A stretch of DNA of 64,000 nt from Synechococcus sp. HJ21-Hayes (GTDB lineage: Bacteria; Cyanobacteriota; Cyanobacteriia; PCC-6307; Cyanobiaceae), in the NCBI RefSeq assembly GCF_024345835.1, contig NZ_JAGQBW010000012.1, forward strand, positions 1 through 64,000, given 5' to 3'. Below, piece by piece: positions 5,056 through 28,742 of this stretch. The translations under genes were made by a program, and so were the position numbers. Within the stretch, counting starts at the first letter, position 1. Each line of letters starts with the position of its first letter. The notes under the pieces were generated by a model, which searched no databases, was not told the origin of the DNA, and was given only the letters and a program-made list of their open reading frames with translations.

Positions 5056-5503
5056 CGAGCAACAGCAACGGCGGTGGTAGGCCTGAAACCTAAAAGCCCT
5101 GTGCCCGGGCTAGAGGTGCCTAGTTGGCCAAGCGATGTGCCATTTTTTACAGCCCCGGGCTGGCCGTTAGGCCGCCAGCTGTTTCAGCGACGCCAGGTAA
5201 CGCTTGCGCTGTCCGGATGCCCAGGGTTCATCGCTCCAGCTGTTCTCTGTTCGGGGGCTGGGTGGGCTCGATGCGTTCTGGGGGGCGAGCTTGTCGCTGG
5301 AGCGAACGGCTGGTGGGCTGGTCTCATGCATGGCGAGAACCTAGGCAGGTTCTGCCAGCTGCCCAGGAGCTGCAATGTGTTGTTGCAATGGCGTGGCCGA
5401 TCGGGGGCGCAGGCCCGGGATATGAGGAAAAACCTCAGCTGAGGTCGGGTTGCCGTTTTCGATTCCAATTCAGAGGACACTCGCCTCCGGACGCGCCTCT
5501 GCC
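5056..5503. other. Divergent intergenic region between futA and rpaB
   Basis: This stretch of about 450 bp holds the promoters of two divergent genes. No coding frame with convincing composition is seen on either strand. A short palindrome (AACCTCAGCTGAGGT) lies about 70 bp before the rpaB start codon. Clear -10/-35 boxes and a Fur box could not be assigned by eye. Confidence 0.4.
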
Positions 5504-9322: not shown

Positions 9323-9568
9323 ATGAATGATCGCTTTCGCGTGCTTCAGCGTCAGCCGCGACGCATCTCAATTACCCTCAGCTACCACGTGCATGAGGCT
9401 CTGTTGAGCCGATCCGAAGAGGAGGGCCGTTCTGTGTCTAACCTCTGCGCATTTCTGTTGGAGGATGCCCTGCGTGATCAACGCAGTCCTTTGATGCCAT
9501 CCCAATCAATCCCCCCTGCGGTGAATGGCTTGATGCCCAATGGTCGCGTCAAGTCGCGCAGTTTTTAG
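9323..9568 (+). CDS. Ribbon-helix-helix (CopG/Arc-like) small protein
   Basis: This 81-residue paralogue of the protein at 794-982 shares the strand RISITLS, the helix around HEALLSRSEEEGRSVSN and LCAFLLED. A 30-residue Pro/Ser-rich tail follows the fold. It is a probable dimeric DNA-binding protein. It is followed by a long hairpin and then a DUF4912 gene on the same strand, and may regulate or be cotranscribed with that gene. Confidence 0.78.
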   Translation: MNDRFRVLQRQPRRISITLSYHVHEALLSRSEEEGRSVSNLCAFLLEDALRDQRSPLMPSQSIPPAVNGLMPNGRVKSRSF

Positions 9569-9622
9569 ATTGTCTTTTCAGATGAGCTGCAGACCTGCAG
9601 CGATGTTCAATCTGATGGCTGG

Positions 9623-9663
9623 GGCTCCCTAGGTTCTGAATTAAGAATCTAGGGAGCCTTTCT
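9623..9663 (+). terminator. Long stem-loop: terminator/attenuator covering the next gene's Shine-Dalgarno
   Basis: A 15-position stem (9623-9637 with 9644-9658, one G-T wobble) and a GAATTA loop are followed by TTTCT, so it looks like an intrinsic terminator of the ribbon-helix-helix gene. The 3' arm contains AGGGAG (9651-9656), exactly 7 nt before the GTG start of the DUF4912 gene at 9664. The hairpin should therefore also hide that ribosome binding site whenever transcription reads through. Confidence 0.7.
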
Positions 9664-10287
9664 GTGTCCAGGCCTCGCCGCCGCTCCCATCCCCGCCTCA
9701 CATTGGCGGCCAAAATCCGCGACCGCGACTGGATCGCGGTGCGCTGGCGGGTGCCTGCGGAGCTCAGGCCGCTGCTGCCAAGCCAGCTTTGCCTGCGCTT
9801 GGTGGATCTCAATCCCGTGGATCCTCTGGCTACGGCTCTCGTGTTGCAGGAGTGGTTGGTGCCCACCGACCGAGGGGAATGGTTTCTCGCCGCGCCAGCG
9901 GTGGAGCGGGTGTATCAGGTGCGCCTCGGTTGCCTCGATGCCCAGGCTGGCTGGCAGGAATGGGCACGATCCAGTCGGCTGCGCTGTCTGGTACCAGCAC
10001 CACATCGGTTGCTGGTGCCCGTGCGCAAGCGGGAGCCGTGCCATCCACGCCAGAGGCTCTGGCTGTTTGCCGATGCCAAGTTGATGGTGCATGGAGCCAC
10101 GATGCGCCATGCCCAACTGGTGATTTCTGGTCAGCCTGTACAGGTGGAGATCGATGGCACCTTCTGCTTCGATGTGCCCCTGAGGGAAGGGGTGGATCGT
10201 TTCTCCTTGGTGGCCCAGCCTGGGCTGGGTCCCGGCCCTGCCATCAGCCGGAGCGGTTGGATCCGCAAGGAAACAAGGCTGGGGTGA
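9664..10287 (+). CDS. DUF4912 domain protein
   Basis: The product is 207 residues. The block from VRWRVPAELRPLLP to YQVRLGCLD matches the Ig-like DUF4912 domain found widely in cyanobacteria. A second block, RLWLFADAKLMVHGAT, corresponds closely to FWLVADAELIVYGAT in the longer DUF4912 protein at 53437-54414, so these are paralogues. No signal peptide or membrane segment is seen; the molecular role is unknown. The only usable start is GTG at 9664, 5 bp after the hairpin. The 3' end overlaps the convergent sigma factor gene by 44 bp. Confidence 0.78.
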   Translation: MSRPRRRSHPRLTLAAKIRDRDWIAVRWRVPAELRPLLPSQLCLRLVDLNPVDPLATALVLQEWLVPTDRGEWFLAAPAVERVYQVRLGCLDAQAGWQEWARSSRLRCLVPAPHRLLVPVRKREPCHPRQRLWLFADAKLMVHGATMRHAQLVISGQPVQVEIDGTFCFDVPLREGVDRFSLVAQPGLGPGPAISRSGWIRKETRLG

Positions 10288-11101
10288 GCGATCGGCGCAG
10301 TTTGGTGAGGGCATGGCGCTCCAGCCGTTGCACCTGATCCTTGCTGCGGCCAATCATCCGTGCCACCTCGGCGAAGGATCGATGGGTGTCACTGCCGTAG
10401 CGGAGCTTGATCACAGCCAGTTCAGGGGTGGAGAGTTGATGCATCTGGCTGTGCATCCAGCTGTAGTCGTCCTCGATTTCGGGCAGGTTGCTGTCGGATA
10501 CGGTGTCCAGAAGGGTCATGTCTCCATCGCTGCCGTTGAGTTGTTGATCGAGGGAAATCGTGTTGCTGCGGTGGTTGATCGAGAGGGCGTAGAGCACCCG
10601 CTCTTCGTTTTCCCCCAGGGCATCCGCTAGCTGCGTGGCATTCAGCGGTTCCTTGCCATTCACCTGAAGGGTTTCCGCCTTGTTGGCAAGGCTCACCAGA
10701 TTCACGGGGATCCGGATCGATCCGTTGTGCTCCTGGAGGTAGCGATTGATGGACTGGCGTATCCACCAGTAGCCGTAGGTGGAGAATTTGTAGCCGCGGG
10801 TGGGGTCGTATTTCTCAGCGGCCCTCAGGAGGCCCATGTTGCCGGCCTGCACCAGGTCCATCGGGTCGTGGGCGAGATGCTTGAGGCGCCTGATGTAGCG
10901 CAGGGCTACGGTCACCACCAATCGCAGGTTGGCATTCACGATCCGTTTGAGTGCTCTGCGGCCTCGCCGTTCGAGCGCTTTGGGCGGATTGGGGTCGTCC
11001 ATCCACTCCTTCACGATCGTGCCGAGGTGCACTTCTTCCTGTGCAGTGAGGAGCGGAACACGACCAATGGTACGCAGGTAATCACCAAAGGCATCACTCA
11101 T
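10244..11101 (-). CDS. Group 2 sigma factor, RpoD-like
   Basis: The 285-residue sigma-70 protein lacks region 1.1. Region 1.2 begins at SDAFGDYLRTIGRVPLL; region 2 (about residues 50-130) includes DLVQAGNMGLLRAAEKYD and the -10 recognition helix in YKFSTYGYWWIRQSI; region 4.2 near the C terminus (EVARMIGRSKDQVQRLERHA) reads the -35 element. This architecture is that of the non-essential RpoD-like sigma factors of cyanobacteria used in stress and circadian responses. The frame extends upstream into the preceding gene, but ATG at 11101 fits the family. It lies 28 bp after cfa on the same strand. Confidence 0.9.
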   Translation of the reverse strand: MSDAFGDYLRTIGRVPLLTAQEEVHLGTIVKEWMDDPNPPKALERRGRRALKRIVNANLRLVVTVALRYIRRLKHLAHDPMDLVQAGNMGLLRAAEKYDPTRGYKFSTYGYWWIRQSINRYLQEHNGSIRIPVNLVSLANKAETLQVNGKEPLNATQLADALGENEERVLYALSINHRSNTISLDQQLNGSDGDMTLLDTVSDSNLPEIEDDYSWMHSQMHQLSTPELAVIKLRYGSDTHRSFAEVARMIGRSKDQVQRLERHALTKLRRSLTPALFPCGSNRSG

Positions 11102-11129
11102 CGCTGGGTTGGATGCAGGTGTCCAATCT

Positions 11130-12362
11130 TCAACTGGATTGATGGAAAATTGACTGCTCTGACGCGGAGGTGCGGTGTGTCTGCAGCGGTGAAGTTCGTC
11201 GTGCAGGACGCCAGGATTCATAGGCTTGGTTCCGGGTCTTCTTGCTCAGAACCACTTGCCAGAGTTGCCCTTGACGAGAACGGAAAAAGCCGGCACAGCT
11301 CAACAGGTAGTAGCGCCAGAATCGATAGAAGTCGTGATGAATATCGTGTTGAAGGGCAGGCCAGGCAGCATCAAAGTTCTGCCACCAAGCCATGAGCGTG
11401 CGATCGTAGTCCTTGCCAAAATTCTCCCAGTCCTCCAGTAGAAAGTCGGATTCAAATCCACGGCAGAACTGGGTGGCGGATGGCAGTCGTCCGCCTGGGA
11501 AGATGTGGGTATCGATCCATCCGTCTGTGTGGTGTGTGGTGCGATCGGAGCCGATGGTCTGCAACAGTGCCAGTCCGTCACTGTGCAGCAATTGATTCAC
11601 GCTATTGTGGAACTTATTGTGGTTGCGTGGTCCTACATGTTCAAACATGCCAATGGAGACAACGCGATCAAAGGGCTCGCTGACCAATTGAGGTAGTTTG
11701 CGATAGTCGCAGAGTGCAACTTGGATTGGTAGGTTTTCCAGGCGTTCCTGGATGAAACGAGCTTGCCGCGATGACACCGTGATGCCCATCACGGTGACGC
11801 CGTAGTTGCGGGCGGCATAGGCCGCCAGGCTTCCCCAGCCACAGCCGATATCCAGCAGTGTCTGACCTGGCTCCAGCTGTAGCTTCTCGCAGATCAGCCT
11901 GAGTTTGTGCTCCTGAGCGGTATTGAGGTCGTCCGCCTGTCGCCAGTAGCCGCAGCTGTACACCATCTGTGGATCCAGCATGGCGGCATACACCCTCGGA
12001 TCGATGTCGTAGTGGCGCTGGCCCACCACAAAGGCCCGGCGTAGTGATTGCGGGTTTAACCATCGCTCGCGTACCAGCTCGGCCAGGCTCAGTAGCTGCA
12101 GTCGTTTGCTCAGGGGTGCCTGGCCGTTGGCCTGCAGGAGCCGGCTGATGAGCTCGTCGAGTTGCTCGCAATCCCAGTCGCCCCTTACATAGCTGTTTCC
12201 CAGGGCTAGAGAACCCTGGCGGAGCAATTCATTGAAGAGTGCTGGGTTATGGACTTGTAGGTCCCACGGCCGCTCACCGTTGAATTGCACATCTGCATGT
12301 TTTGCAACGGTGGCAATCGCCGCAGGAATGGGCATTGTGCTGGTATCACTGGCACCAATCAA
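11130..12362 (-). CDS. cfa: Cyclopropane-fatty-acyl-phospholipid synthase
   Basis: The product is 410 residues, the usual length for CFA synthases. The SAM-binding glycine motif LLDIGCGWGSLA is at residues 169-180; the family cysteine in YSCGYW is at 136-141; the conserved FYRFWRYYLLSCAGFFRSRQ block is near the C terminus. The enzyme transfers a methylene group from S-adenosylmethionine to double bonds of membrane phospholipid acyl chains. Here it immediately precedes a group 2 sigma factor gene, an unusual coupling. MPIPAAIA at residue 10 is an alternative start. Such genes are uncommon in picocyanobacteria as far as I know, so acquisition by transfer is possible. Confidence 0.9.
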   Translation of the reverse strand: MIGASDTSTMPIPAAIATVAKHADVQFNGERPWDLQVHNPALFNELLRQGSLALGNSYVRGDWDCEQLDELISRLLQANGQAPLSKRLQLLSLAELVRERWLNPQSLRRAFVVGQRHYDIDPRVYAAMLDPQMVYSCGYWRQADDLNTAQEHKLRLICEKLQLEPGQTLLDIGCGWGSLAAYAARNYGVTVMGITVSSRQARFIQERLENLPIQVALCDYRKLPQLVSEPFDRVVSIGMFEHVGPRNHNKFHNSVNQLLHSDGLALLQTIGSDRTTHHTDGWIDTHIFPGGRLPSATQFCRGFESDFLLEDWENFGKDYDRTLMAWWQNFDAAWPALQHDIHHDFYRFWRYYLLSCAGFFRSRQGQLWQVVLSKKTRNQAYESWRPARRTSPLQTHRTSASEQSIFHQSS

Positions 12363-12414
12363 ACGCTGTTGAGAGCAATTCCCTGAACTTGTTGTAGATT
12401 CGCGGCAGCTTGTG

Positions 12415-12445
12415 GGCGAGGGCGCTGCGATTGAGCGCCCTCGCC
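12415..12445 (-). terminator. Perfect stem-loop after hsp20
   Basis: GGCGAGGGCGCT (12415-12426) and its exact complement (12434-12445) form a 12-bp stem with a 7-nt loop, starting 7 bp past the hsp20 stop. There is no T-tract on the minus strand (CCACAAG follows), so it may be a transcript-stabilising or pausing structure rather than an intrinsic terminator. Confidence 0.5.
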
Positions 12446-12452
12446 GTAGTTG

Positions 12453-12893
12453 TTACTCGATCGCCACTTCCACGGCTGTAGCTTGGCTCGTTGGGACTTT
12501 GGGAAGATCAACTTCCAGCAGCCCATCATGGAAATGGGCTTTCAACTGTTCCGCATCAACGTTTGATGGCAAGGTGAAGCTGCGCATGAAGTTTCCGTAG
12601 CTGCGCTCGATGCGGTGGTGACGCCAGCCCTTCTCTTCCATTTCCTTATGCCGCTCACCCTCCAGAACCAGAATGCCATTCTCGATCTTTACCTTTACAT
12701 CCTTTTTCTCCACGCCAGGTAGTTCAGCATGAATCTGAAACTCTTTGTCGTTCTCGCTGATATCCACCCGCGGACACCACTCGCCATTGCTACCCCATTC
12801 GCCCGAACGCATCAGCGGCAGGCTGAGATTGCGGCTGTAGCGATCCATTAGATCTTCAAAGTCTCGCAGGGGTTCCCACTTCATCAATGCCAT
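12453..12893 (-). CDS. hspA: Hsp20-family small heat-shock protein
   Basis: The product is 146 residues, a typical length. The alpha-crystallin domain spans about residues 42-135: PRVDISENDKEFQIHAELPG, the loop KKDVKVKIENGILVLEGER, and the strand with YGNFMRSFTLPSNVDAE. A short, potentially oligomerising C-terminal tail follows. It is an ATP-independent holdase that in cyanobacteria also associates with thylakoid membranes. I found no CIRCE inverted repeat upstream. Confidence 0.93.
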   Translation of the reverse strand: MALMKWEPLRDFEDLMDRYSRNLSLPLMRSGEWGSNGEWCPRVDISENDKEFQIHAELPGVEKKDVKVKIENGILVLEGERHKEMEEKGWRHHRIERSYGNFMRSFTLPSNVDAEQLKAHFHDGLLEVDLPKVPTSQATAVEVAIE

Positions 12894-13289: not shown

Positions 13290-14549
13290 CTAGCCCTGAA
13301 CCCTCAGCTTGTTGAGGAGAAAACCGAGAACAGTTGTTTGACGTGTGATGACATCACCTGTGATCTGCATGCCCAGTCGCAGTTGGCAGTTGTCCTTGCG
13401 CCCTTTGAGACTGTTGCTCTTCGGTTGCACCAGCACCTCATAGGCGCTTGTCGCCGCACCCCCGTCGGCCGCTCTCTGAGCCTGTGTATCGGCGCCCACG
13501 CTGAGCACCCGGGCTGTGAGCACACCAAATTCCGCGGTTGGACAGCTTGCCACCCTCAGGCTCGCCTTCTGCCCGCTTCGCACTTGGCTGATCAAATCTG
13601 GAGGAACCAGGAGCTTGATCATCATCCGTTCCGAGGCAGGCGCCAATACGGCCATGGTTTCTGCAGGCTGCACAACCTGACCCGGATGGTGGAGGCTGGT
13701 CTGGATCACGGATCCGCTGATCGGTGCTCGCACGGTGGCCTGCTCAATAGCCCTGTTCAGTTGTACGAGTCGAGCTCTTCGCTGGGCGAGTTGTTTGCTC
13801 CATTCATCGGCCGATGCGCGGGATTGAGATGCAGTCTGCTTCAGTCTGGCAAGCTCGCTTGCCCCACGCGCTTCCTGTTCAGATACGCCCTGTAGGGCTT
13901 TGAAGAGTTCCGATCGGCTCACCAACTGACGAGCCTGTTTTTCCTCAACGATGCTTTTTGGCACTGCGCCACTCGTGAGAAGAGACTGGTATCGCTTCAA
14001 TTGGCTCTGTTCGAATTCCAGAGTTGCCTTCGCCTGATCGACCCCACGGCGTGATGCTGTTCTCCAGGAGTTGGTTAACTCTCCGAGAGCCTGCACCTGA
14101 GCTTGTAGCGACCTTTGCTCTTCGCGCGATTGATTGGCCTGTCGTTGCAAGGCCGTTAGCTCCTGGTTCACCTGGTCACGCTCGGCCTCCAGTGTTCGGC
14201 TATCTAAAATAGCCAGCACTTGTCCTTGGCTCACTTGCTGGTTTGGCCGTAGCATCACCTGCTGTACCCGTCCCCCGAGCTCACTCTGCAACAGGGTGTT
14301 CTCGCCAACGGGACGCACGGTTCCCTGCGCGCGAACAGTTTCTTGCATCGGCCATACGGCTAGAGCTCCTGCCCCGAGTGTTAAGGCAAGAGCAAGTTGA
14401 CGGCCTAGGGCCCTTGTCCATGGGCCTGGGCTTGGAAGGAAGTCATCGTGTTGCAGCTCATGCAGCACGACCGAGACATTCTCGCCGCCCTTGCGTATGG
14501 ACGTTGTGCTGGGTACCAGACCCCGGTCTGATCTGCCTGTATTCGTCAT
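13290..14549 (-). CDS. HlyD-type periplasmic adaptor of a peptide exporter
   Basis: The product is 419 residues. A cytoplasmic N-terminus is followed by one membrane helix (about residues 50-67), a first lipoyl/barrel half (AQGTVRPVGE to QVLAILDS), a long coiled-coil hairpin (about residues 110-265, rich in Gln/Glu/Arg), a second lipoyl half (ATVRAPISGSVIQTSLHHPGQVV) and a beta-barrel domain. It bridges the inner-membrane ABC exporter to an outer-membrane channel of TolC type, which is not encoded here. Its start overlaps the transporter stop by 4 bp (ATGA), so the two are translationally coupled. Confidence 0.9.
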   Translation of the reverse strand: MTNTGRSDRGLVPSTTSIRKGGENVSVVLHELQHDDFLPSPGPWTRALGRQLALALTLGAGALAVWPMQETVRAQGTVRPVGENTLLQSELGGRVQQVMLRPNQQVSQGQVLAILDSRTLEAERDQVNQELTALQRQANQSREEQRSLQAQVQALGELTNSWRTASRRGVDQAKATLEFEQSQLKRYQSLLTSGAVPKSIVEEKQARQLVSRSELFKALQGVSEQEARGASELARLKQTASQSRASADEWSKQLAQRRARLVQLNRAIEQATVRAPISGSVIQTSLHHPGQVVQPAETMAVLAPASERMMIKLLVPPDLISQVRSGQKASLRVASCPTAEFGVLTARVLSVGADTQAQRAADGGAATSAYEVLVQPKSNSLKGRKDNCQLRLGMQITGDVITRQTTVLGFLLNKLRVQG

Positions 14550-16792
14550 GCGGCTTGTAGGTAAGGGCCAACTTGGCTGTGGTTTCGGAGGTCATGAGGG
14601 TGACTCTGCTGCTTGACAGATCCTTGTTCCATGTAAATGATCCAGTCCGCGCGCAAAATCACACTCGAGCGATGGCTCACCAGGAGTGTGGTTTTTCCCT
14701 TGCGATGATCCAGGAGGCGATCCATCAGCCGTGCTTCTAGGACAGGATCAAGGGCAGAGGTGGATTCATCTAGCAGGAGAACCGAAGGATCACTGGCCAG
14801 AGCCCTAGCAAGAGCGAGGCGTTGTCGTTGACCGCCAGACAAATTGGCGCCGAATTCACCTAACACAGTGGCATAGCCGTCAGGAAGCCGACAGATGAAG
14901 TCATCAGCAAGGGTTAGTTGGCAGAGCTCTACCACATCCGCGAAGCTCAAATCTGGATAGGCGAAGATAAAGTTATCGTAGATCGAACGATTGAGAAAAA
15001 TGTCCTCTTGAGGTAGTAGTACCACCTGTTGTCTTAGGCATTCAAGGCTGAGATCGCGTCCATTGAATGGCCCAAAATGAATTGTGCCTTGCTGCAGTGG
15101 GTATAGTCCAGCAATGAGCTTGCTCAGGGTACTCTTTCCACAGCCAGATTCTCCAATTAAAGCCGTTGTAATGCCCCCTGGAATTCTGAGATTTAGGTTC
15201 TGGATCAACGCACAGCGTCCTGGGTGATGGAAGCTCACGTTATGGCAGACAATATCGCCATCGGCTGGGATCTCCGCCTCTTGCTTGCCAGGAGCTATTG
15301 CTGATTCTGCCGGATGTTGCAGTGCGTCATCCAGGCGATCCATCACAACCCGAGATGTAATCCATTCTTGGCTCAGTCCTGTCGCAGCGGCTAGAAATGC
15401 AAGAACATTGCCCCCCATTCCATTGAATGCCAGGAGCTGACCAATGGTGAGTTGTTGGTTCAGAACAAATGAACTTCCGTACCAGAGCAGGATCACGGTT
15501 GTCACGTTGCCGAGAAAGGTCGTGGCTGTGCTCGCCTTGAGCTCAAGCATTCCCATATTCCAGGCTAAATTCGCCAGACGTCCTTGCTTGCCCTGAAATT
15601 CATCCCATGCCTGTGGTCGCGCCTGTGTCGTTTTTAGAAGGGTCTGCCCCCTGAAGAGTTCAACCAAAAACCCCTGGTTATCAGCTGATTGCACCAGCAT
15701 GCCCTGGGTTCTCCGATGTAAACTTGGCAGAATGGCTACCTGTGCTAATAAAACGGTCGAATAGCCAACCAAGGCAGCTACCGTGAGGGATCCACTGTAT
15801 TGCCACATCCATAGCAGTGAAATGAGAGCGATGCAGCATTGGCCAGGCAGCCCTAGCACTGCATTGGCAATCAAATCATTGAGGCGCTGGATGTCATCCA
15901 AACGGCTCACAACTTCTCCGCTACGACGACTTTCGAAGTAGCTGAGTGGCAGTTGTAGTAAATGCCGGCCGTAGTGTAGGACCATCTGCAGTTGTAGTTT
16001 CTGTCCAAAGTGGCCCACCAAGACACCCTGCAGCAGATTGAGCAATGCTCGCAGTAGGAAGAGAGCTAGAATGCCTATGCTCAAGCTCCGTAGCATGTCT
16101 GCATCTCCACGTACCAATACATCATCCGTAAGGATCTGCATGAGTAGCGGCATCGCCAGTGCAAGAACCCCGATGCTTAGGTTGAGTGCAAGTGCTTGAA
16201 AGAGCAATCGCTTAAACGGCAGCACCAGGGTACGGATAAGGTTTGCTCCCCTGCCTCTTTGCCAGTTCTCCTCAACTTTGTCTTGCGGGGGGAAGCGCTG
16301 AGGATCGGTTTCCAGGAGTAACACCACCCCATTGTTCCAACCCTTGAGAAAAGCCTGCGGGCTCATCTCTCTTAGGCCAATCGCAGGGTCAGCTACAAGC
16401 AGTTGTCCATTCTTATGGCCGTGTAACACTACCCAATGGCATCCCTGCCAGTGGCAGATGATTGGCATCGGCAGGGATTCCAGGTCGCTGAGCATTTCCG
16501 GCGAGGCCTTAGCTGCTCTGGCATTGAAGCCAAGACTTTCTGCCCCGCGCTTCAAGCCCAGCAATGTTGTTCCCGTGCTGGACGTGCCAACACTGTGCCT
16601 TGCTATTGAGAGAGGCAGCGCATAGCCATGACTTTGGCAGACGGTGGCTACGCAGGCTGCTCCGCAGTCTTCCTCACTGTGTTGGCGTATGCAGGCTGGG
16701 GTGTCTGTTGGAACAAAAGCTCGCAGCTGGCTTTTGATCCAGGTTATCCATTTGACGCGTTCCATTCCCAGATGCTCCTTGGGCTGGTTCAA
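14546..16792 (-). CDS. C39-peptidase ABC exporter for double-glycine peptides
   Basis: The product is 748 residues, with three domains. The N-terminal C39 protease has C43 in EEDCGAACV, H119 in CHWVVLHG and D135 in VADPAIG, the full catalytic triad. Six membrane helices follow at about residues 190-450. The ATPase domain (about residues 500-740) has Walker A GESGCGKST, signature LSGGQRQR and Walker B LLLDESTSALD. Such transporters remove leaders after a Gly-Gly pair and export the mature peptide in one step. Four small upstream genes encode exactly such leaders. Its start overlaps the stop of the nearest one by 4 bp. Confidence 0.93.
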   Translation of the reverse strand: MNQPKEHLGMERVKWITWIKSQLRAFVPTDTPACIRQHSEEDCGAACVATVCQSHGYALPLSIARHSVGTSSTGTTLLGLKRGAESLGFNARAAKASPEMLSDLESLPMPIICHWQGCHWVVLHGHKNGQLLVADPAIGLREMSPQAFLKGWNNGVVLLLETDPQRFPPQDKVEENWQRGRGANLIRTLVLPFKRLLFQALALNLSIGVLALAMPLLMQILTDDVLVRGDADMLRSLSIGILALFLLRALLNLLQGVLVGHFGQKLQLQMVLHYGRHLLQLPLSYFESRRSGEVVSRLDDIQRLNDLIANAVLGLPGQCCIALISLLWMWQYSGSLTVAALVGYSTVLLAQVAILPSLHRRTQGMLVQSADNQGFLVELFRGQTLLKTTQARPQAWDEFQGKQGRLANLAWNMGMLELKASTATTFLGNVTTVILLWYGSSFVLNQQLTIGQLLAFNGMGGNVLAFLAAATGLSQEWITSRVVMDRLDDALQHPAESAIAPGKQEAEIPADGDIVCHNVSFHHPGRCALIQNLNLRIPGGITTALIGESGCGKSTLSKLIAGLYPLQQGTIHFGPFNGRDLSLECLRQQVVLLPQEDIFLNRSIYDNFIFAYPDLSFADVVELCQLTLADDFICRLPDGYATVLGEFGANLSGGQRQRLALARALASDPSVLLLDESTSALDPVLEARLMDRLLDHRKGKTTLLVSHRSSVILRADWIIYMEQGSVKQQSHPHDLRNHSQVGPYLQAA

Positions 16793-17031
16793 GCCGAGGC
16801 ATCCATGCTCAAGCCATTCAGCTGGTTGTTCACAATCGAACCGCCATTAAACACGATGTTGATTGCAAAGTTGATTTGGTTGGCTCCCATCAGTACGGAG
16901 CTCATGATTCCGCCACCTCCAGCTCTTCCACCCCCTCGCCTCTGCGGACTCAGACGTGCGTTGTAGCTTCTCAATCCGGAGCTGCGGCCGCCACAATGCT
17001 GTTCGGCTTCGAATTCTTTGAGGAACTGCAT
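16789..17031 (-). CDS. Double-glycine leader peptide precursor D
   Basis: The 80-residue product has leader MQFLKEFEAEQHCGG (15 residues), then a 65-residue core. The core begins basic (SSGLRSYNARLSPQRR), passes through a glycine-rich linker (GGGRAGGGG) and ends with a hydrophobic, Asn-rich segment (VLMGANQINFAINIVF). The linker ends in GG before IMSS, so a second C39-type cut is conceivable. The stop codon overlaps the exporter start (ATGA), placing it in the exporter operon. The leader resembles those of the other three precursors in EAE-x-x-x-GG, although His-Cys replaces Leu-Thr before the glycines. Confidence 0.75.
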   Translation of the reverse strand: MQFLKEFEAEQHCGGRSSGLRSYNARLSPQRRGGGRAGGGGIMSSVLMGANQINFAINIVFNGGSIVNNQLNGLSMDASA

Positions 17032-17058
17032 GGAATGATTGGATGAATGTGATAGGAA

Positions 17059-17084
17059 GCCCGTTTCCTGTGATGGAAACGGGC
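17059..17084 (-). terminator. Hairpin after precursor C
   Basis: A perfect 10-bp stem GCCCGTTTCC/GGAAACGGGC with a 6-nt loop begins 6 bp past the stop of the gene at 17090. The minus strand continues TTCCTATC, a weak T-tract, so partial termination is likely before precursor D and the exporter. Confidence 0.6.
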
Positions 17085-17089
17085 AAGCA

Positions 17090-17302
17090 TCAAGCGGCGA
17101 TGATCGCTGACAAGTCCAAGCCTGTGAGTTGGCTCACGCCTGATCCAGCTGAACCTCCGAGTAAACCAACCGCAACGCTGGCAGCATTGTTCAACTGCAG
17201 TGCATTGGTGAGGATGGAGCTAATCGTGATACTGGGCGATACATTGATCGTGAGAAAGCCACCTGTAAGGGCCTCTGCTTCCAGTTCGTTAAGTTCGTAC
17301 AT
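17090..17302 (-). CDS. Double-glycine leader peptide precursor C
   Basis: The product has 70 residues. Leader MYELNELEAEALTGG is a textbook double-glycine leader with hydrophobic residues at regular spacing (L, L, A, L) before GG. The 55-residue core is hydrophobic and almost uncharged (FLTINVSPSITISS, then NNAASVAVGLLGGSAGSG), suited to insertion into membranes. Its ISSILTNALQLNNAASVAV resembles MSSVLMGANQINFAINIVF of precursor D, so the two may share an origin. A hairpin follows the gene. Confidence 0.85.
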   Translation of the reverse strand: MYELNELEAEALTGGFLTINVSPSITISSILTNALQLNNAASVAVGLLGGSAGSGVSQLTGLDLSAIIAA

Positions 17303-17318
17303 GGTGTCTAGGAGTGGG

Positions 17319-17356
17319 AAAAGCCACCGCTAGCTGATGGCAACTAACGGTGGCTT
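17319..17356 (-). terminator. Intrinsic terminator after precursor B
   Basis: A 9-bp stem (AAGCCACCG with CGGTGGCTT) is followed on the minus strand by TTTTCCC, 18 bp downstream of the precursor B stop. It separates precursor B from precursor C. Confidence 0.65.
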
Positions 17357-17374
17357 GGTGTGAACAGATGTGGC

Positions 17375-17590
17375 TCAGCTAATGACAGAACCCAGTTCAA
17401 ATGCATTGCCCTGCAGACTATGGGCAAAGCCACCACCCAGCAGGACACCGATGCCGTTATTGCTTACGGTGTTGCCCTGGGTGAGGCGAGTGGTGTTGAA
17501 GCTGTATTTGGTGGTGTCGATCTTGGTAAACCTCCAGCCACCGCTGAGGGCCTCTGAGTCGCGGCTGTCGAGTTCGGTGAACATCATCAT
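17375..17590 (-). CDS. Double-glycine leader peptide precursor B
   Basis: The product has 71 residues. The leader MMMFTELDSRDSEALSGG is followed by a 53-residue core that starts WRFTK, contains a polar stretch (YSFNTTRLTQGNTVSNN) and then GIGVLLGGGFAHSLQGN. The core aligns with that of precursor A over its whole length: NT-x-x-NN-x-G-x-G, a glycine cluster, then S-x-Q-x-N and a final hydrophobic S-x-I. The pair therefore looks like a duplicated bacteriocin gene. No Cys or Ser/Thr-modifying enzyme partner is encoded nearby. Confidence 0.87.
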   Translation of the reverse strand: MMMFTELDSRDSEALSGGWRFTKIDTTKYSFNTTRLTQGNTVSNNGIGVLLGGGFAHSLQGNAFELGSVIS

Positions 17591-17648
17591 GGTTGCTTGC
17601 TTTCGTGTCGTGTTGGTTGAGCTCTAAACCTCAAGTCCCTGATGTGAC

Positions 17649-17867
17649 TCAGAGGATGTAGGAGGTGACAGAGGCAATGTTTGCTTGCTCGCTGGTAGCG
17701 ACGCCGTAGCCTGCGAGACCAAAGCCAAAGTTATTGGCTGTGTTGTTCTGGCCTACAGTCGTCTTGTTCGACTTATAGGTGTAGGCCGATTTCTGGTACC
17801 AAGAACCCCAGCGGCCCCCGGTCAGGGCTTGGGCTTCTTGGTCCGCGATCAGATGGAGTTTAGTCAT
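17649..17867 (-). CDS. Double-glycine leader peptide precursor A
   Basis: The product has 72 residues. The leader MTKLHLIADQEAQALTGG is followed by a 54-residue, mildly basic core beginning RWGSWYQKSAYTYKS and continuing TTVGQNNTANNFGFGLAGYG. Aromatic residues cluster at the core N terminus, and glycine/asparagine in the middle. It is the first of four codirectional precursors leading to the exporter. It is homologous to precursor B; receptor-binding or pore-forming roles cannot be told from sequence. Confidence 0.87.
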   Translation of the reverse strand: MTKLHLIADQEAQALTGGRWGSWYQKSAYTYKSNKTTVGQNNTANNFGFGLAGYGVATSEQANIASVTSYIL

Positions 17868-17978: not shown

Positions 17979-18836
17979 CTAGGGAAAACTTGCAGTTCGG
18001 AATGAGCCCCCCCAGCTGAGTGACAATGCAACAGCACGACCTCGTCCATCATTGTTGGCTAGGTTTGCCCCTGACAGCGCGATATAGATCGGCACCTCCC
18101 TTAGCGGCACATAGGACAGTGAGGCATTGATTCCCTTGCCAACCCAGCCAGCGCTCAGCCCCAGGTTCGGGGTTAGTTCTATCCCTGCTGATGCGAGCAG
18201 CCCATCGCTCACAAGATTCACCGCGTCGATCCGTTGAAAGCGACCACTTCCCCCTCCGAGGTTGATCTGCAGTGTCTGTCGAAAGTTCGGGTCGTCCTTT
18301 CGGAGCGCCCATGCCCCTGTGAGCACGCCATAGGGAGATCCCCCTGGTTTTGGCCAGTTTCCATAGGAGGCCGCTCCAAGCCATCCTGCTCCGATGTGCA
18401 TCGTGAAGTCGTTATTGGTGTAGAGCTCCCTGCCGAGTCTCACGTCGAGGCTGCCACCATTGCGCTGATCCGCCAAACTCTCCAGGTTAAAGTCCACCTC
18501 AATGGCCACGAGCCGCCGGGCATTACCCATCCCCACGCCGACATTCACACTTCCGTCAGTTGTTAGTGCATTGTTGTTATTGCCGTCTTCGTAGCCATAG
18601 ATCGAAGATGAGACAAAATAGTTTCCCCACTCAGCTACAAAAGCGGTTGGCATCTGTGTGGGGTTGAGGTTTGGTCGGCTGTATGGCTGCTGTTGCCTCT
18701 GGCCTTGTTTGTTGTGATCCTGCACCATGCTCTCTGCCGATTCGTTGGCATGAGCATGTAGCGTGTTACCCAGGCTCCATAGGCTTCCGATGAGTGTGAT
18801 ACCAACGACGATGCTGTTCTTTTTGTTTTGTTGCAT
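17979..18836 (-). CDS. Barrel-like envelope protein of unknown function
   Basis: The product has 285 residues. It has an N-terminal signal sequence (about residues 8-30, SIVVGITLIGSLWSLGNTLHA), then a disordered Gln/Asn/Pro stretch, then about eight to ten short amphipathic strands with alternating hydrophobics (NARRLVAIEVDFNLESL, LDVRLGRELYTNNDFTMHIGAGWLG, GLSAGWVGKGINASLSYV). This pattern fits an outer-membrane beta barrel. It begins 3 bp after the glycosidase stop, in one tight row with the GT2 and GH26-like genes, which suggests a role in polysaccharide export or surface attachment. No Pfam family is recognised. Confidence 0.7.
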   Translation of the reverse strand: MQQNKKNSIVVGITLIGSLWSLGNTLHAHANESAESMVQDHNKQGQRQQQPYSRPNLNPTQMPTAFVAEWGNYFVSSSIYGYEDGNNNNALTTDGSVNVGVGMGNARRLVAIEVDFNLESLADQRNGGSLDVRLGRELYTNNDFTMHIGAGWLGAASYGNWPKPGGSPYGVLTGAWALRKDDPNFRQTLQINLGGGSGRFQRIDAVNLVSDGLLASAGIELTPNLGLSAGWVGKGINASLSYVPLREVPIYIALSGANLANNDGRGRAVALSLSWGGSFRTASFP

Positions 18837-18839
18837 CGT

Positions 18840-19793
18840 TTAGGTCTCCAGGCAGCGGAGTGCCTGTTGGGGTTTGAGTGGCAGTGCTGTCTGGATCCAG
18901 TTCTGACTCTCAGGTTTCAACCTCCAGTCTTCGTGCCCAGTGGGAAGTGGCATCCATCGTGGTTGTTGTGCCTGGAAGTACACCAGTCCACAGAGTTCTG
19001 GAAAGTTACTTCTGTTGTCTATTGCTTCTTTTAACCATGTCGTCTGATCCTTGCTCGATCCACTTACACCCATTTCGGCTACAATCACAGGCTTCCGATA
19101 GCGATCGTGCAACCATCGTTTCTCGCTAAATAGTTCGGAGAAGCTGGGGAGTGATCCATCTTCTGTCCACGCACGACTGGCATAGACGGATAGACCGATT
19201 AAGTCCACATAATCTTTTCCTGGCCAGAATTTTTCAGCACCTTTTCTGCCAATTGGGGACCAGACCCATCGGATCTGCTTGTTGTCTGCGGAATTGAGCA
19301 TGGTGTGCACATACCGATAGAGCTGAATGTATTTTTTTGGCTCCTTCCATGCCCATGGATATTGACCTGGCTTGTCCATCTCGTGGGCAAAGCGGAGCAG
19401 CACTGTGCCCTTGTGCGCTTTCAGAACCTGTTTGATTTCTTGAAGCTGCTTATCATATTGACCACTCAGCACATCTGCATGTAGATCCCTATCATCTCCA
19501 TCTGGATCTGTTTTGGGAAAGGGTTCTAGTGTCACCAATGGAACTCTTGTTTGTATTGTACTGTCTGCTAGAAATGACATGAGTTGCTTCGCAGCGGATG
19601 GATCAATCCAGCTGATGAACTGATGGTTCAGATCTAGGCCATGCCAACTCTCATTGCGCGGCTCTGTTGTGTACATTCCAATTAACATCGGGTAGCGATG
19701 GCGATTCTTGATGTCGTGGTTGCTTGCCAGGACTAGTAATCCACTGGTCACTGCAGCCAGTCCGATCAATCCGGTTTGTCCTAAAAGTCGCAT
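18840..19793 (-). CDS. GH26-like glycoside hydrolase, membrane-anchored or periplasmic
   Basis: The product has 317 residues. An N-terminal hydrophobic segment (about residues 5-24) is a signal or anchor. The TIM-barrel hallmarks of GH26 beta-mannanases are readable: acid/base E138 in RFAHEMDKPG, and nucleophile E240 in VIVAEMGVSG, with YPWAWKEPKKYIQLYRYVH and RWVWSP between them. It probably trims or edits the polysaccharide made by the GT2 encoded 4 bp upstream, as the cellulase BcsZ or alginate lyase do in other synthase-dependent systems. The actual linkage cleaved is unknown. Confidence 0.82.
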   Translation of the reverse strand: MRLLGQTGLIGLAAVTSGLLVLASNHDIKNRHRYPMLIGMYTTEPRNESWHGLDLNHQFISWIDPSAAKQLMSFLADSTIQTRVPLVTLEPFPKTDPDGDDRDLHADVLSGQYDKQLQEIKQVLKAHKGTVLLRFAHEMDKPGQYPWAWKEPKKYIQLYRYVHTMLNSADNKQIRWVWSPIGRKGAEKFWPGKDYVDLIGLSVYASRAWTEDGSLPSFSELFSEKRWLHDRYRKPVIVAEMGVSGSSKDQTTWLKEAIDNRSNFPELCGLVYFQAQQPRWMPLPTGHEDWRLKPESQNWIQTALPLKPQQALRCLET

Positions 19794-19797
19794 TGGT

Positions 19798-21546
19798 TTA
19801 GGATCTGATTAATACCTTGCTGATTCCTGCTTGCCAGGTGGCTGGCGTGGTCAACGGTGCCAGTAATTCTCGTTGTCGTATCCAGATGCTGCTGAGAGTA
19901 AGCACGATGGCCGTTGTTGCCATGAGGTGATGCCTACGCCTTGTCTTTCGGCTTAATGTTGTGATTGCAAGGATCGCTACCGTTAAGAGAGCAGCATTGA
20001 TGAGAGTGAGTAGAACATAACCTTGTGCTTTCGGGGCGATGGGTCCCAGCAGCACTGCTACGCCGCAGGCCACGAACACCCCAGCCAAGTTCGGGACCAA
20101 AAAGCGCGATGGTAGAGGTGAAGCTGAACCCCCTTTGTTTGTTACCTTAAAGTCCAGTGAATATGAGGACCATCGCATCACAAATGCGTGGATCACGCCT
20201 GTTAAAATCCATGGCCCCCGGCTAAGCTCAAAAAGCCCCTGCTCCCACGAGACCAACGGTGCGTCCGGTGGTTGCAGTAGTTTCTGTTGCTTTAAATACA
20301 GCACTGGCAATAGTGTAAGCAGCAGCTGTAGCCCACTCAGGGCAAGAAAGCTTGGGTAATGGACCTGCATCCAAGGTCTATTGATTGCCAGCGCCACAAT
20401 TGGCAAGCCTATTCCGAAGAGGCTCAACAAGCCTCTTAGTGGATAGAACACCTGGGCATAGAGAAACTGTAGCCTTAATCTCCAAGGCAGTTTTCTTAGC
20501 AGTGCAGGTGTGTAACTCAGTAGCAGAGCTGTCAAACTCCTGGCCCACTGCATCTCCTGCACCATCGCATCTTCAAAGGTTTCCGGTCCTAGTCCGTGGC
20601 AGATTGCACGATGGGCAAAGGCTCCACGCCAGCCCTTTGCATTCATCAGAAGTGTTGTTGAGTGGTCTTCCGCAAGTTCTGGTCCCAGTCCTCCGATTTC
20701 CCGAAGAGCTTTCGTACGTACTGCGTAGTGGCTACCGATGCATAGTGGGGCAAGACTGTTGTTAAATCCGAGTTGTTGTGGTCCATGCAGCACGCTCTCG
20801 GCGTATAGTCGTCCTCGTGCAACCCAGCTCGTGTCAGCATTGCAGTCGCACACTGACGGTGCTGCTACATATCCGATCCCAGGGTCATTAAATGGTCTGA
20901 GCATCTCCTCTAAATACCCCTCTGCGGGTCTATGGTCGGCATCCAGCTGCACAACGACGTCGTAGCGCTCGTACCCGAAGTGGTCATAAAAGTAAGCTAG
21001 ATTGCCTTCCTTGCACCGTCTCCGTCTTGGCCAGCTAGGTTGGTGATAGCCTTCTACTTGCCAGCGCGACGATATTTTTACTCCCTGCTGACTGCACCAC
21101 TCCTTCACTTCTGGGCTTGGCTGTTCATCTGCCAGCCACGTCGCATGATGGTGTCTCTGTTCTATTGCTGCTTCCAGTGTGGGTCGCACGACGGACCACG
21201 GCTCTGATGGACTCTTTGTGACAACCATCGCAACTCTCAGACCGCTAGGTGGGTTGAGTCTTGGATTGACTTGTCGCATCCGAAGAAACAACACAAATGG
21301 CCATAGTGGCAGGCCGGTCACGTAGATCAACAGACTTGCGTTGAACAGTGTGTAAGGCAAGCTCACCCACGTATCTGGCTGCAACATCCATCGCCAGAAC
21401 GCGAGCGTGCCCATGATCCAACATAGAACCAAGATCTGCAGCACTCTTTGCTGTCTGTTGTCGAATGCTGGCTCGAATATGCTGTTCATGCTCTCACTTC
21501 TCCTCGCATCTGGCTCGCCCCATGACTTAATCGCTGCTTTCGGCAC
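19798..21546 (-). CDS. Membrane glycosyltransferase family 2, cellulose-synthase-like
   Basis: The product has up to 582 residues. Two N-terminal membrane helices precede a GT-A domain with the DxD-type motif QLDADHRP, the catalytic acid in LAEDHST and QEMQWARS, corresponding to the Q-x-x-R-W motif. Several C-terminal membrane helices follow, and DFKVTNKGG matches the gating-loop motif FxVTxKG of BcsA-type synthases. It should polymerise a sugar at the inner membrane and move the chain across. The adjacent ugd and UXS genes supply UDP-glucuronate and UDP-xylose. A start at the later ATG (MNSIFEP, 21489) is possible. Confidence 0.87.
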   Translation of the reverse strand: MPKAAIKSWGEPDARRSESMNSIFEPAFDNRQQRVLQILVLCWIMGTLAFWRWMLQPDTWVSLPYTLFNASLLIYVTGLPLWPFVLFLRMRQVNPRLNPPSGLRVAMVVTKSPSEPWSVVRPTLEAAIEQRHHHATWLADEQPSPEVKEWCSQQGVKISSRWQVEGYHQPSWPRRRRCKEGNLAYFYDHFGYERYDVVVQLDADHRPAEGYLEEMLRPFNDPGIGYVAAPSVCDCNADTSWVARGRLYAESVLHGPQQLGFNNSLAPLCIGSHYAVRTKALREIGGLGPELAEDHSTTLLMNAKGWRGAFAHRAICHGLGPETFEDAMVQEMQWARSLTALLLSYTPALLRKLPWRLRLQFLYAQVFYPLRGLLSLFGIGLPIVALAINRPWMQVHYPSFLALSGLQLLLTLLPVLYLKQQKLLQPPDAPLVSWEQGLFELSRGPWILTGVIHAFVMRWSSYSLDFKVTNKGGSASPLPSRFLVPNLAGVFVACGVAVLLGPIAPKAQGYVLLTLINAALLTVAILAITTLSRKTRRRHHLMATTAIVLTLSSIWIRQRELLAPLTTPATWQAGISKVLIRS

Positions 21547-21652: not shown

Positions 21653-23005
21653 TCATAGCAGTTCACCACGTCCGATCTGCCATACTTCAAGTCCAGCATC
21701 TGCGGCAGCCTGAATATCCGTCCCGCGTCGTGTATCAAATACCCAGCCGGGCCTACGCATTTTGCCTGCTATCTGATTCCAATTCATCTGCTGATAGTCA
21801 CACCAGTCCGTGAGTACGATCACGGCATCGGCATCTTCACATGCCTCTTCAACAGTGTTGTGCCGGCTGAAGCTACCTTCAAGTAGTTTGCTGATGTCAG
21901 CATCCGACACCCTTGGATCATGGATGCGCAAGCTAGCGCCATCATGAAGTAGTTCCCGGCAGATCGGAATTGCTGGGCTTTCCCGGGTGTCGTCTGTGTC
22001 TGCCTTAAATGCAAATCCAAGAACTGCCACCTTCTTCCTGCGTAGCCCTCCAAACATCCGGCGTACAACTAGATCAGAGATTCGCTTCTGAGACCAATTG
22101 TTCAACTCTACGACTGAACGCCAGTAGTGTGCTACTGGATCCAGCCCATAATGTTCCGCTAGATAGATCAGATTGAGTAGATCTTTTGTGAAGCAGCTTC
22201 CTCCAAAGCCTGGCCCTGGTTTCAGAAACTGTTTGCCGATACGCTGGTCACTGCCAATCGCCAGCCTGACTTCTTCTACATCAGCGCCTGTTGCCTCGCA
22301 AAGTCCCGCAATCGCATTGATCGATGATATTCTCTGAGCCAGAAATGCATTAGCTGTTAACTTCGCTAGTTCCGCCGACCACAAGCCTGTTGTGATGATG
22401 CGGTCTCTTTCGACCCATTGTGCGTATATACCGGCGAGCTCCTCAACGGCTGTCGCTTCTTCGCCACCCACTAAAACACGATCTGGATTCTCCAAATCAT
22501 GAATTGCTGTGCCCTCCGCCATGAATTCTGGATTGGAAAGAATCTCGAACTTTGCATCATGACCCTGGCTCAGAATCTTGCGGAGAATGTCTGCTGTTCG
22601 TACCGGTAGTGTGGAGCGTTCGACAACAATTGTGCTTCCTCTCGCATCAGTTGCGATCTGACGTGCAGCCGACTCGATAAACGTTAGATCTGCCGCCGCT
22701 CCTGCTCCGTGCCCGCTGACCTTCGTCGGTGTATTCACGGATAGAAATACCATGTCAGCTTTTCTTATTGCTGCTGTCACATCGGTTGAGAATCTCAGAT
22801 TCTTTCCCCGCACTCGTTCTAGGACACTTTCTAAGCCCGGTTCGTAGACAGGTAGCGATGCATTGCCTAGGTTGTTCCAGGCGTCAATCCTTTTCTTGTC
22901 TAGGTCGACCACTTCAATTTCAATGCCACGGCACTGATCTGCCATCACAGCCATGGAAGGTCCACCTACATAGCCAGCTCCAATGCAGCAGATTCTGTTT
23001 GTCAT
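21653..23005 (-). CDS. ugd: UDP-glucose 6-dehydrogenase
   Basis: The product has 450 residues. The N-terminal NAD-binding motif is CIGAGYVGGPSMAVMA. The catalytic cysteine is in GPGFGGSCFTKD, flanked by the lysine and asparagine blocks of the family (NAFLAQRISSINA); a C-terminal UDP-binding Rossmann domain has FAFKADTDDTRESPA. It oxidises UDP-glucose to UDP-glucuronate with two NAD+. The length and style resemble the eukaryote-like class. It overlaps the UXS stop by 4 bp (ATGA), so substrate channelling from Ugd to UXS is matched by coupled translation. Confidence 0.92.
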   Translation of the reverse strand: MTNRICCIGAGYVGGPSMAVMADQCRGIEIEVVDLDKKRIDAWNNLGNASLPVYEPGLESVLERVRGKNLRFSTDVTAAIRKADMVFLSVNTPTKVSGHGAGAAADLTFIESAARQIATDARGSTIVVERSTLPVRTADILRKILSQGHDAKFEILSNPEFMAEGTAIHDLENPDRVLVGGEEATAVEELAGIYAQWVERDRIITTGLWSAELAKLTANAFLAQRISSINAIAGLCEATGADVEEVRLAIGSDQRIGKQFLKPGPGFGGSCFTKDLLNLIYLAEHYGLDPVAHYWRSVVELNNWSQKRISDLVVRRMFGGLRRKKVAVLGFAFKADTDDTRESPAIPICRELLHDGASLRIHDPRVSDADISKLLEGSFSRHNTVEEACEDADAVIVLTDWCDYQQMNWNQIAGKMRRPGWVFDTRRGTDIQAAADAGLEVWQIGRGELL

Positions 23006-23961
23006 GATACTTTTGTGAGAACTTGCTTGGTTTCTAGCTGTGCCTTAATGTCGGCGATGGTTTCTTTTAATCCGTTCTCTAGTGAGATCACGGGTTGCCA
23101 CTCCAGCATCTTCCTTGCAACTGTGATGTCTGGCTTTCTTCTTTGAGGATCGTCTTCTGGTTTGGCTTTGTTTGTCAGCCCTGCTTGTGTATTTACTAGA
23201 TCCCTGATTATGCGGGCTAGCCTCCTGATTGTGATCTCGTCCGGGTTTCCCAGGTTCATAGGGCCTTTGTGTCCACTATTCATGAGTGCCACTAGCCCTT
23301 CAACCAGATCGCTGCAGTAGCAAAAGCTTCTTGTCTGCAATCCATCGCCATACATAGTTAGGGGTTTCCCTTGTATTGCCTGGCTGATGAAGTTGGTTAC
23401 AACCCTTCCATCGCTGCTACTCATCCTTGGCCCATAGGTGTTAAATATTCGTGCCACGGCTACCGATGTGCCATGCATTCTCGCGTGGTCAAATACCAAT
23501 GTCTCCGCAATCCTCTTGCCCTCGTCGTAACAAGCCCTTGGGCCTGTGCAGTTCACGTTCCCCAGATAGCCTTCTTGCTGGGGGCTTACCAGTGGGTCTC
23601 CATAGATCTCACTTGTTGAGGTAAACAGTAGTCTGGCTTTGCACCTATGCGCAATGCTCAATGTGTTTAGTGTGCCCAGGAAGCATGTCTCAGCTGTGCC
23701 GATGGGATCTTTCTGGTACTGCTCGGGTGACGCCGGACATGCCAAGTGCCACACCTGATCTGCCTCGACGTGAAATGGCTCTCTCACGTCATGCTCTACC
23801 AACTCAAAACGAGGATTGCCTAGCCACTTCTCTATATTCTTCTTTGAACCTGTCTGCAAGTTGTCGATGCAGACAACTTTGTTTGCCCCTGTACTCATCA
23901 GTCTGTCTATTAGGTGAGAGCCGATAAAGCCGGCCCCCCCAGTCACTACGTGACGCATCAA
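23002..23961 (-). CDS. UDP-glucuronate decarboxylase (UDP-xylose synthase)
   Basis: The product is a 319-residue extended SDR: NAD motif GGAGFIGSHL at residues 8-17, FTSTSEIYGDP, the catalytic Tyr/Lys in ACYDEGKRIAETL, and RIFNTYGPRM. The combination SPEQYQ-x-DP and TGPRACYDEGKR is typical of UXS rather than of epimerases. It converts UDP-glucuronate to UDP-xylose. It is the first gene of the polysaccharide row. Confidence 0.9.
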   Translation of the reverse strand: MMRHVVTGGAGFIGSHLIDRLMSTGANKVVCIDNLQTGSKKNIEKWLGNPRFELVEHDVREPFHVEADQVWHLACPASPEQYQKDPIGTAETCFLGTLNTLSIAHRCKARLLFTSTSEIYGDPLVSPQQEGYLGNVNCTGPRACYDEGKRIAETLVFDHARMHGTSVAVARIFNTYGPRMSSSDGRVVTNFISQAIQGKPLTMYGDGLQTRSFCYCSDLVEGLVALMNSGHKGPMNLGNPDEITIRRLARIIRDLVNTQAGLTNKAKPEDDPQRRKPDITVARKMLEWQPVISLENGLKETIADIKAQLETKQVLTKVS

Positions 23962-27994: not shown

Positions 27995-28732
27995 CGGGCC
28001 TCCACTCGTACAACGCAACGGAATCCCATGTGGCATGTGGAGGTGTCGATGCCCTGAGCCATTCGTGCGGCTGGTCGGTAGCGGCGGCAATAGCTCGGTG
28101 CACATAGAAACGACCCACCTTTCACCACCTTTCGCGGCATGCTTCCGTGCTGGGAGTTTGGCGCGATGCTGGCCTCACGGGCTGTCTCGGCGCCATCGTA
28201 GCAACCAGCACCGCTAGAGGGTTCTGCGTGGTTGTTGTTGTACCAATCGCTCGTCCATTCCCACACATTGCCGATCATGTCCACTAGGCCATAGCCGTTG
28301 GCGGGAAACACCCCGATCGGTGAGGTCCGTTCGTATCCGTCTTGGAGGGTGTTGTGATGTGGAAACTCTCCTTGAAAGGTGTTGGCCATCATTCGACCGC
28401 AGGGATGCAGCTCTTCCCCCCAGGCGTATTCGGTGTTGTTGAGGCCGCCCCGCGCTGCCCGTTCCCATTCATGCTCGTAGGGCAGTTGCTTGCCCAGCCA
28501 CTGGGCATAGGCCTCAGCGTCCTCAAAAGCCACATGCACCACGGGATGGTGCTCACGGTTTTTGATCGAGCTGCCGGGTCCCTCGGGATGCCGCCAGTTG
28601 GCCCCTGCGATGTACTGCCACCAGCTGTAGGGATCTGCCTGGTTGTTCACGGCTACGGGGGGCACAAACACGATTGAGGCCGGAGCCAGTTGCTCCTGCA
28701 ATGCTCCGGGATAGACGGCCGGATCTGCACCA

Positions 28733-28742
28733 CGTTCAGCCA
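28733..28742. repeat. Target-site duplication, left copy
   Basis: CGTTCAGCCA, identical to 29985-29994, borders the ISAs1 element. A 10-bp duplication fits this family. Confidence 0.9.

Follow-up and report, generated by a model that had tools for sequence, protein, structure and literature searches.

In Synechococcus elongatus the exporter PteB secretes the biofilm peptides EbfG1-4; formation of the biofilm requires both the double-glycine (GG) motifs and the cysteine of the C39 peptidase, and mature EbfG is found in the medium (PMC4997328). EbfG1-3 form amyloid, and EbfG4, which does not, is found both on the cell surface and in the matrix (PMC9981879). In cyanobacteria, gene clusters that combine GG peptides with a C39 exporter are widely annotated as bacteriocins, and short C39 exporters accompanied by HlyD were grouped as putative bacteriocin clusters by Wang et al. 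2011, whose group III list includes S. elongatus PCC 7942 and Cyanobium PCC 7001 (PMC3140520). A C39 peptidase is also needed for secretion of the Fap amyloid of Pseudomonas (PMC5557850, PMC6173800), whose repeat is GN-X-G-N-X2-AG-X2-NQQ-X-N (PMC5557850). The subject here is a set of four GG-leader precursor genes, P1-P4, with a C39-peptidase ATP-binding cassette (ABC) exporter and an HlyD adaptor, found in a 64,000-nucleotide stretch of Synechococcus sp. HJ21-Hayes (contig NZ_JAGQBW010000012.1, positions 1 to 64,000, forward strand; "the window" in what follows). With a probability that falls slightly short of an even chance, we read it as an EbfG/PteB-like operon for beta-rich extracellular matrix peptides. 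The six genes are:

17649..17867, minus strand: P1, GG-leader precursor of 72 residues (mature 54), with orthologs in L051-L054, L144 and L145; two Q-x-N motifs, 21 residues apart
17375..17590, minus strand: P2, GG-leader precursor of 71 residues (mature 53); Q-x-N pair 22 apart
17090..17302, minus strand: P3, GG-leader precursor of 70 residues (mature 55); hydrophobic (grand average of hydropathy, GRAVY, 1.03), one Q-x-N
16789..17031, minus strand: P4, GG-leader precursor of 80 residues (mature 65); Q-x-N pair 18 apart; core with a Gly/Arg-rich linker, then conserved NQxNxAxNI..NGGSIVNNQLNG
14546..16792, minus strand: C39-peptidase ABC exporter, PteB-like; start at TTG 16792 or ATG 16765
13290..14549, minus strand: HlyD-family periplasmic adaptor, with an ATGA overlap with the exporter

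An initial annotation of this DNA, made from the letters alone, had described four small minus-strand GG-leader genes before a C39 ABC exporter and HlyD, and all six are where it placed them; the C39 triad C43/H119/D135 (748-residue numbering) is intact, and the predicted mature lengths fall within its 53-65 residues. The average masses predicted for mature P1 to P4 are 5887, 5677, 5283 and 6639 Da. Its EAxAL(T/S)GG leader pattern is exact in the genes at 17649 and 17090, the leader at 17375 having SEALSGG and that at 16789 EAEQHCGG. The ATGA overlap holds for the exporter and HlyD; the overlap of P4 with the exporter is TTGA, and is present only with the TTG 16792 start, not with ATG 16765. 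Pfam matches over cut-off are Peptidase_C39 (6.7e-32), ABC_membrane and ABC_tran for the exporter and HlyD_3 for the adaptor.

Over 715 aligned positions the window's exporter has 53% identity with PteB of S. elongatus. The reference locus used for this comparison, L137, is taken to be S. elongatus ebfG1-4/pteB because the published mass-spectrometry peptides of EbfG1, EbfG2 and EbfG4 (PMC4997328) are present in it letter for letter; the exporter follows EbfG1-4. The window resembles the PCC 7942 system in exporter family, in having four GG precursors directly upstream, in core size and in the lack of a known domain. It differs in that its cores are non-homologous to EbfG, which is without Q-x-N, in that the exporter clades are separate, and in its linked polysaccharide locus. 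The likeness to the group III clusters lies in the short C39 ABC exporter with HlyD, an average of 3.89 precursors per cluster and diverse cores, and the features of that group (short C39 exporter, HlyD, several precursors, no modification enzyme) are all found in the window, a comparison by features in which the paper's tree is not reproduced. Unlike the window, these clusters are presumed bacteriocins, and in the parts of that account drawn on here neither paired-motif cores nor polysaccharide linkage is described (PMC3140520).

The precursor genes recur with the exporter. With a leader profile built from 35 leaders, those of P1-P4 among them, exactly P1-P4 are found in the 64-kb window at a score of at least 15, and nothing in 20 mononucleotide shuffles. 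Eleven of 24 same-genus genomes have an exporter with 58-77% identity, one of the eleven copies being partial. In seven clusters from different genomes (the window, L051-L054, L144 and L145) there are four precursors in identical order, and the positional partner is the best match in 166/168 comparisons of the cores alone and in 164/168 of the full precursors. Codon-level constraint, whose lack the initial annotation had named as a ground for refuting its reading, was examined in five clusters: changes fall mostly at third positions, and the ratio of amino acid-changing to synonymous change (pN/pS) of the precursors is 0.25-0.76, the closest pair, L052/L054, excepted. The exporter part gives 0.03-0.24, with synonymous change near saturation in many pairs. 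By the third-position changes and these ratios P1-P4 are protein-coding genes under weak constraint, and their recurrence as an ordered set in seven clusters shows them to be real. Among 201 genomes of the family the P1/P2 profile matches in 11; the best match is near the exporter on its contig in 9 of these, on another contig in G220, and in G106 it occurs with no exporter found.

By hhalign the cores of P1 and P2 share homology (E 3e-15, probability 98%), and a relation of P3 to the two is probable (E 1.7e-5, 79%); these values are for cores, hhalign on whole precursors having aligned mainly the leader. In 42 picocyanobacterial cores (a set from which leader matches scoring below 15 and minus-strand matches were left out, L036 excepted) Q-x-N occurs 73 times, as against 11.3 by shuffling, and a pair of Q-x-N motifs 15-26 residues apart is present in 29 of the 42, as against 0.27 by shuffling (at most 3 in 5000 shuffles). 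Since each ortholog enters as a separate core, independence is overstated by these figures. The pattern was first noticed on these loci and then tested on further ones, where, at a score limit of 12 and with L147-L150 and L163 left out of 20 as contigs repeated from earlier loci, it is found in 11 of 16 cores (0.08 by shuffling), a set that is not independent since eight of the 16 are P1-P4 orthologs from L144 and L145. The pair is found in none of 24 precursors that the same leader profile picks out in other cyanobacteria. In the P1/P2 cores every second column is conserved, with variable ones between (shuffle p 0.0001; the same test gives 0.068 for P4, 0.37 for P3 and 0.010 for EbfG1-3), and strand-like repetition of an Asn/Gln unit is present in P1/P2, weak for P4 and absent for P3.

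The curli proteins CsgA and CsgB consist of strand units that repeat about every 18-23 residues and contain Gln/Asn positions; they have more units and use a different export route. The alternation, together with Gln/Asn pairs about 18-23 apart, resembles by analogy the stacked beta-strand units of such functional amyloids. The Fap system is alike in that a C39 peptidase serves the export of an amyloid with N/Q repeats, a likeness drawn from the published repeat, Fap sequences not having been compared; it is unlike in that FapD is periplasmic and outside any ABC exporter, and in that FapF is an outer-membrane pore (PMC5557850, PMC6173800).

A polysaccharide locus stands directly upstream, so that the order on the minus strand is epimerase, UDP-glucose dehydrogenase (UGD), GT2, GH26-like protein, 285-residue protein, P1-P4, exporter and HlyD:

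23002..23961, minus strand: NAD-dependent sugar epimerase/dehydratase
21653..23005, minus strand: accessory UGD of a second type
19798..21546, minus strand: cellulose-synthase-like GT2 glycosyltransferase
18840..19793, minus strand: GH26-like glycoside hydrolase of the polysaccharide locus
17979..18836, minus strand: 285-residue protein, no family assigned, just upstream of P1

The second-type accessory UGD (match of at least 70%) is present in seven of the 24 exporter-bearing genomes searched. In five of the seven (G000, G019, G133, G171 and G187) it is no more than 10 kb away from the exporter, in three arrangements: on the upstream side with the same orientation, on that side but divergent, and downstream. 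Such proximity would arise by chance with a probability of about 7e-10 under independence, a condition from which these genomes depart by shared ancestry. The 285-residue protein has matches in 15 of the 201 family genomes, 12 of them below 1e-20, and the exporter or a fragment of it is found in 6 of these 12 (Fisher p 0.001, the genomes again sharing ancestry); directly beside the precursors it is found only in the window and in G133 (L144, another genus), where it is upstream of P1. G152 (L171, about 4450-5110) has a match to this protein whose end overlaps with a short piece of C39, possibly a decayed or rearranged cluster.

On the preferred reading, of matrix peptides, each peptide would be made with a GG leader, which the exporter's C39 domain would cut off after Gly-Gly while the core leaves the cell through the ABC exporter, HlyD and an outer-membrane protein of the TolC type, a route taken from family knowledge and from PteB. 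The cores, most of them with paired, strand-like Q-x-N motifs, would stack with themselves and with each other into beta-rich amyloid-like surface fibres, and these, with polysaccharide of the linked UGD/GT2 locus, would form a matrix for attachment or aggregation; i.e. the operon would work like EbfG1-4/PteB of S. elongatus. A wider proposal is more tentative, and we hold it to be possible but somewhat improbable: that picocyanobacteria share an unnamed family of short functional amyloids with two Q-x-N rungs, secreted as a fixed set through a type I C39 exporter and deposited along with a dedicated polysaccharide, as a second evolutionary line parallel to EbfG.

A number of results weigh against the matrix reading. 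In a tree of 47 exporters the picocyanobacteria form one clade (14 rows, support 95/100), and S. elongatus PteB stands among filamentous and other cyanobacteria (28 rows, 100/100); a clade joining PteB with the picocyanobacterial exporters is rejected by the approximately unbiased test (p-AU 0.0004 with the long-branched L084 and 0.00009 without it). Strict orthology to PteB was dropped because of this rejection, and by the tree the window's exporter is a member of the same cyanobacterial family rather than a strict ortholog. Core profiles of P1/P2, P3 and P4 show no homology to EbfG (hhalign probability below 1%), in agreement with the statement of Parnasa et al. that mature EbfG1-4 lack homology to other cyanobacterial proteins, and the same profiles have no hhalign match to CsgA/CsgB of E. 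coli K-12. The matches of P4 to P1-P3 are too weak to establish kinship (E 0.0017 and probability 15% with P3, 1% with P1/P2), and P3 has one Q-x-N only. The AlphaFold2 models have predicted local distance difference test (pLDDT) scores of 43 (P1) and 51 (P4); both show two short strands close to the C-terminus, and in P4 a helix of low confidence runs through the core, a monomer prediction being a poor test of amyloid. A PDB sequence search with two precursor profiles finds no relative. Constraint on the peptides is weak, and weakest on P1 and P2, whose pN/pS in L052/L054 is 0.93 and 1.19, values that come from a small number of changes. The leader profile finds no precursor at eight loci whose exporters are more distant (L153-L158, L160 and L161). 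The accessory UGD is absent from 17 of the 24 exporter carriers searched, and in two drafts, G004 and G007, UGD and exporter lie on different contigs. Finally, eight EbfG-type precursors, taken from two genomes of the S. elongatus type, all lack Q-x-N, and single Q-x-N is enriched in the 24 control precursors too (11 versus 4.1 by shuffling), so that by these counts only the pairing is specific to picocyanobacterial cores; because of these last two results our confidence in the matrix reading was lowered slightly, from an even chance to just below it.

The arrangement of GG leader, C39 ABC exporter and HlyD adaptor is that of class II microcins such as microcin V, and the window has all three. 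A multi-peptide class II microcin or bacteriocin, whose cores would act singly or together on the membranes of competitors with self-protection by the exporter or by an unlinked gene, is one rival, in our estimate an unlikely one. It agrees with the filing of such clusters as putative bacteriocins (PMC3140520), with the basic character of P1, P2 and P4 (isoelectric points 9.5, 9.7 and 12.0) and the hydrophobic P3, and with the fast change of P1/P2 between the closest relatives. The absence of a recognised immunity gene, remarked on in the initial annotation, stands, since among small operon-strand reading frames near the exporter in 17 loci no immunity-like gene recurs in at least three (42 two-locus groups, the other strand and farther genes lying outside this search). 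One small-frame family is widespread, and 47 of its 52 members have a GG leader, the other 5 being short frame shadows; two more groups, one at 4 loci and the other at 3, seem to be alternative frames, and neither is membrane-like. None of the four precursors matches a Pfam or NCBIfam bacteriocin family over cut-off, an LcnG-beta match to the leader region being sub-threshold (E 0.023). The bacteriocin system of the initial annotation is thus retained in part, the genes being consistent with export through a C39 type I system that removes the leader; the killing role is unsupported because no immunity-like gene recurs within the search just described, the cores are kept one-to-one, no bacteriocin family matches over cut-off, and PteB, the closest exporter that has been characterised, serves biofilm peptides.

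A surface or polysaccharide-binding coat without fibres, e.g. for defence against grazers or phages or for organising the linked polysaccharide, is to us slightly less probable still than a bacteriocin. It would account for the linkage to the polysaccharide locus, it has a precedent in EbfG4, which is at the cell surface without amyloid (PMC9981879), and neither AlphaFold2 nor the core profiles give support for fibres; the alternating, paired Q-x-N pattern favours stacking, however, and no carbohydrate-binding family matches the cores. The least probable of the rivals, and in our view quite improbable, is that the peptides are secreted signals or attachment regulators sensed by the same population. 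GG peptides are signals in other bacteria, and genes for a CopG-like regulator and a sigma-70 factor are repeatedly found beside the cluster, but signals tend to be shorter than these cores with their 53-65 residues, no sensor kinase is found among the neighbours scanned, and four different co-conserved cores exceed what a signal needs. Modified peptides were also considered: a lanthipeptide or an azole-containing ribosomally synthesized and post-translationally modified peptide is rejected on the lack of any YcaO or LanC-like match in the window's own genome (97.7% complete) and of Cys in any of the four predicted mature peptides, and the same facts fit peptides without azole or lanthionine. 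The initial annotation's statement that no modification enzyme lies near is thereby extended genome-wide for YcaO and LanC-like proteins, radical-SAM enzymes not having been searched.

The same genome has one C39 domain at E of at most 0.001, and TolC-type OEP genes are present. A P4-like precursor profile matches in it P1-P4 and, weakly (E 0.007), a site on contig 23, where two tandem minus-strand frames (L180, 1045-1314 and 1441-1737) have GG leaders and Asn-rich cores. One of these cores matches a precursor beside the exporter of G013 (L039, E 2e-8), its own leader score being low (9.4); the other frame has a leader score of 23.8 and no usual start codon close before it. The pair are candidate extra substrates, for which the window's exporter would be the sole such route since a single C39 domain was found in the genome. 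To the earlier suggestion that partner precursors of the exporter could be encoded elsewhere, the answer is accordingly mixed: four stand at the locus, and further ones may lie on contig 23 in addition.

Should the family prove to be matrix-forming, annotations of such picocyanobacterial clusters as bacteriocins would need revision, and a clear genetic test of picocyanobacterial aggregation would become possible. The paired Q-x-N rule provides a simple search signature. If a second line parallel to EbfG is true, bacteriocin-type export machinery builds biofilm matrix. Among the literature matches listed, no title or abstract opening gives an account of this core family, subscription journals and preprints being outside the scope.

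Several exporter loci of the wider set have features of their own. In G079 (L155, 5398-7833, plus strand) a precursor-like GG leader and a Q-x-N core run in frame, stop-free, into a C39 exporter, which is either a precursor naturally fused to the exporter or an accident of the reading frame. Two Chamaesiphon loci, L115 and L125, have GG precursors with Ser/Ala/Asn/Gly-rich cores, by eye nearer to EbfG than to the window's cores. In-frame stops in two C39 copies (G165:C1:1612133-1612537 and G147:C1:1836902-1837303) suggest decay in some family members.

A promoter and terminator scan gives signals at chance level, and an Rfam scan of the window finds a tRNA and nothing else. Beyond HlyD, at 9323-12893, are genes for an Hsp20, a cyclopropane-fatty-acid-synthase-like protein, a sigma-70 factor and a CopG-like ribbon-helix-helix protein, some or all of which are also near the cluster in L052, L054, L055 and L151 in varying order; the sigma-70 factor could be a regulator of the cluster. 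At 27080-28743 of the window an AraC-type regulator adjoins an FGE-sulfatase-domain protein.

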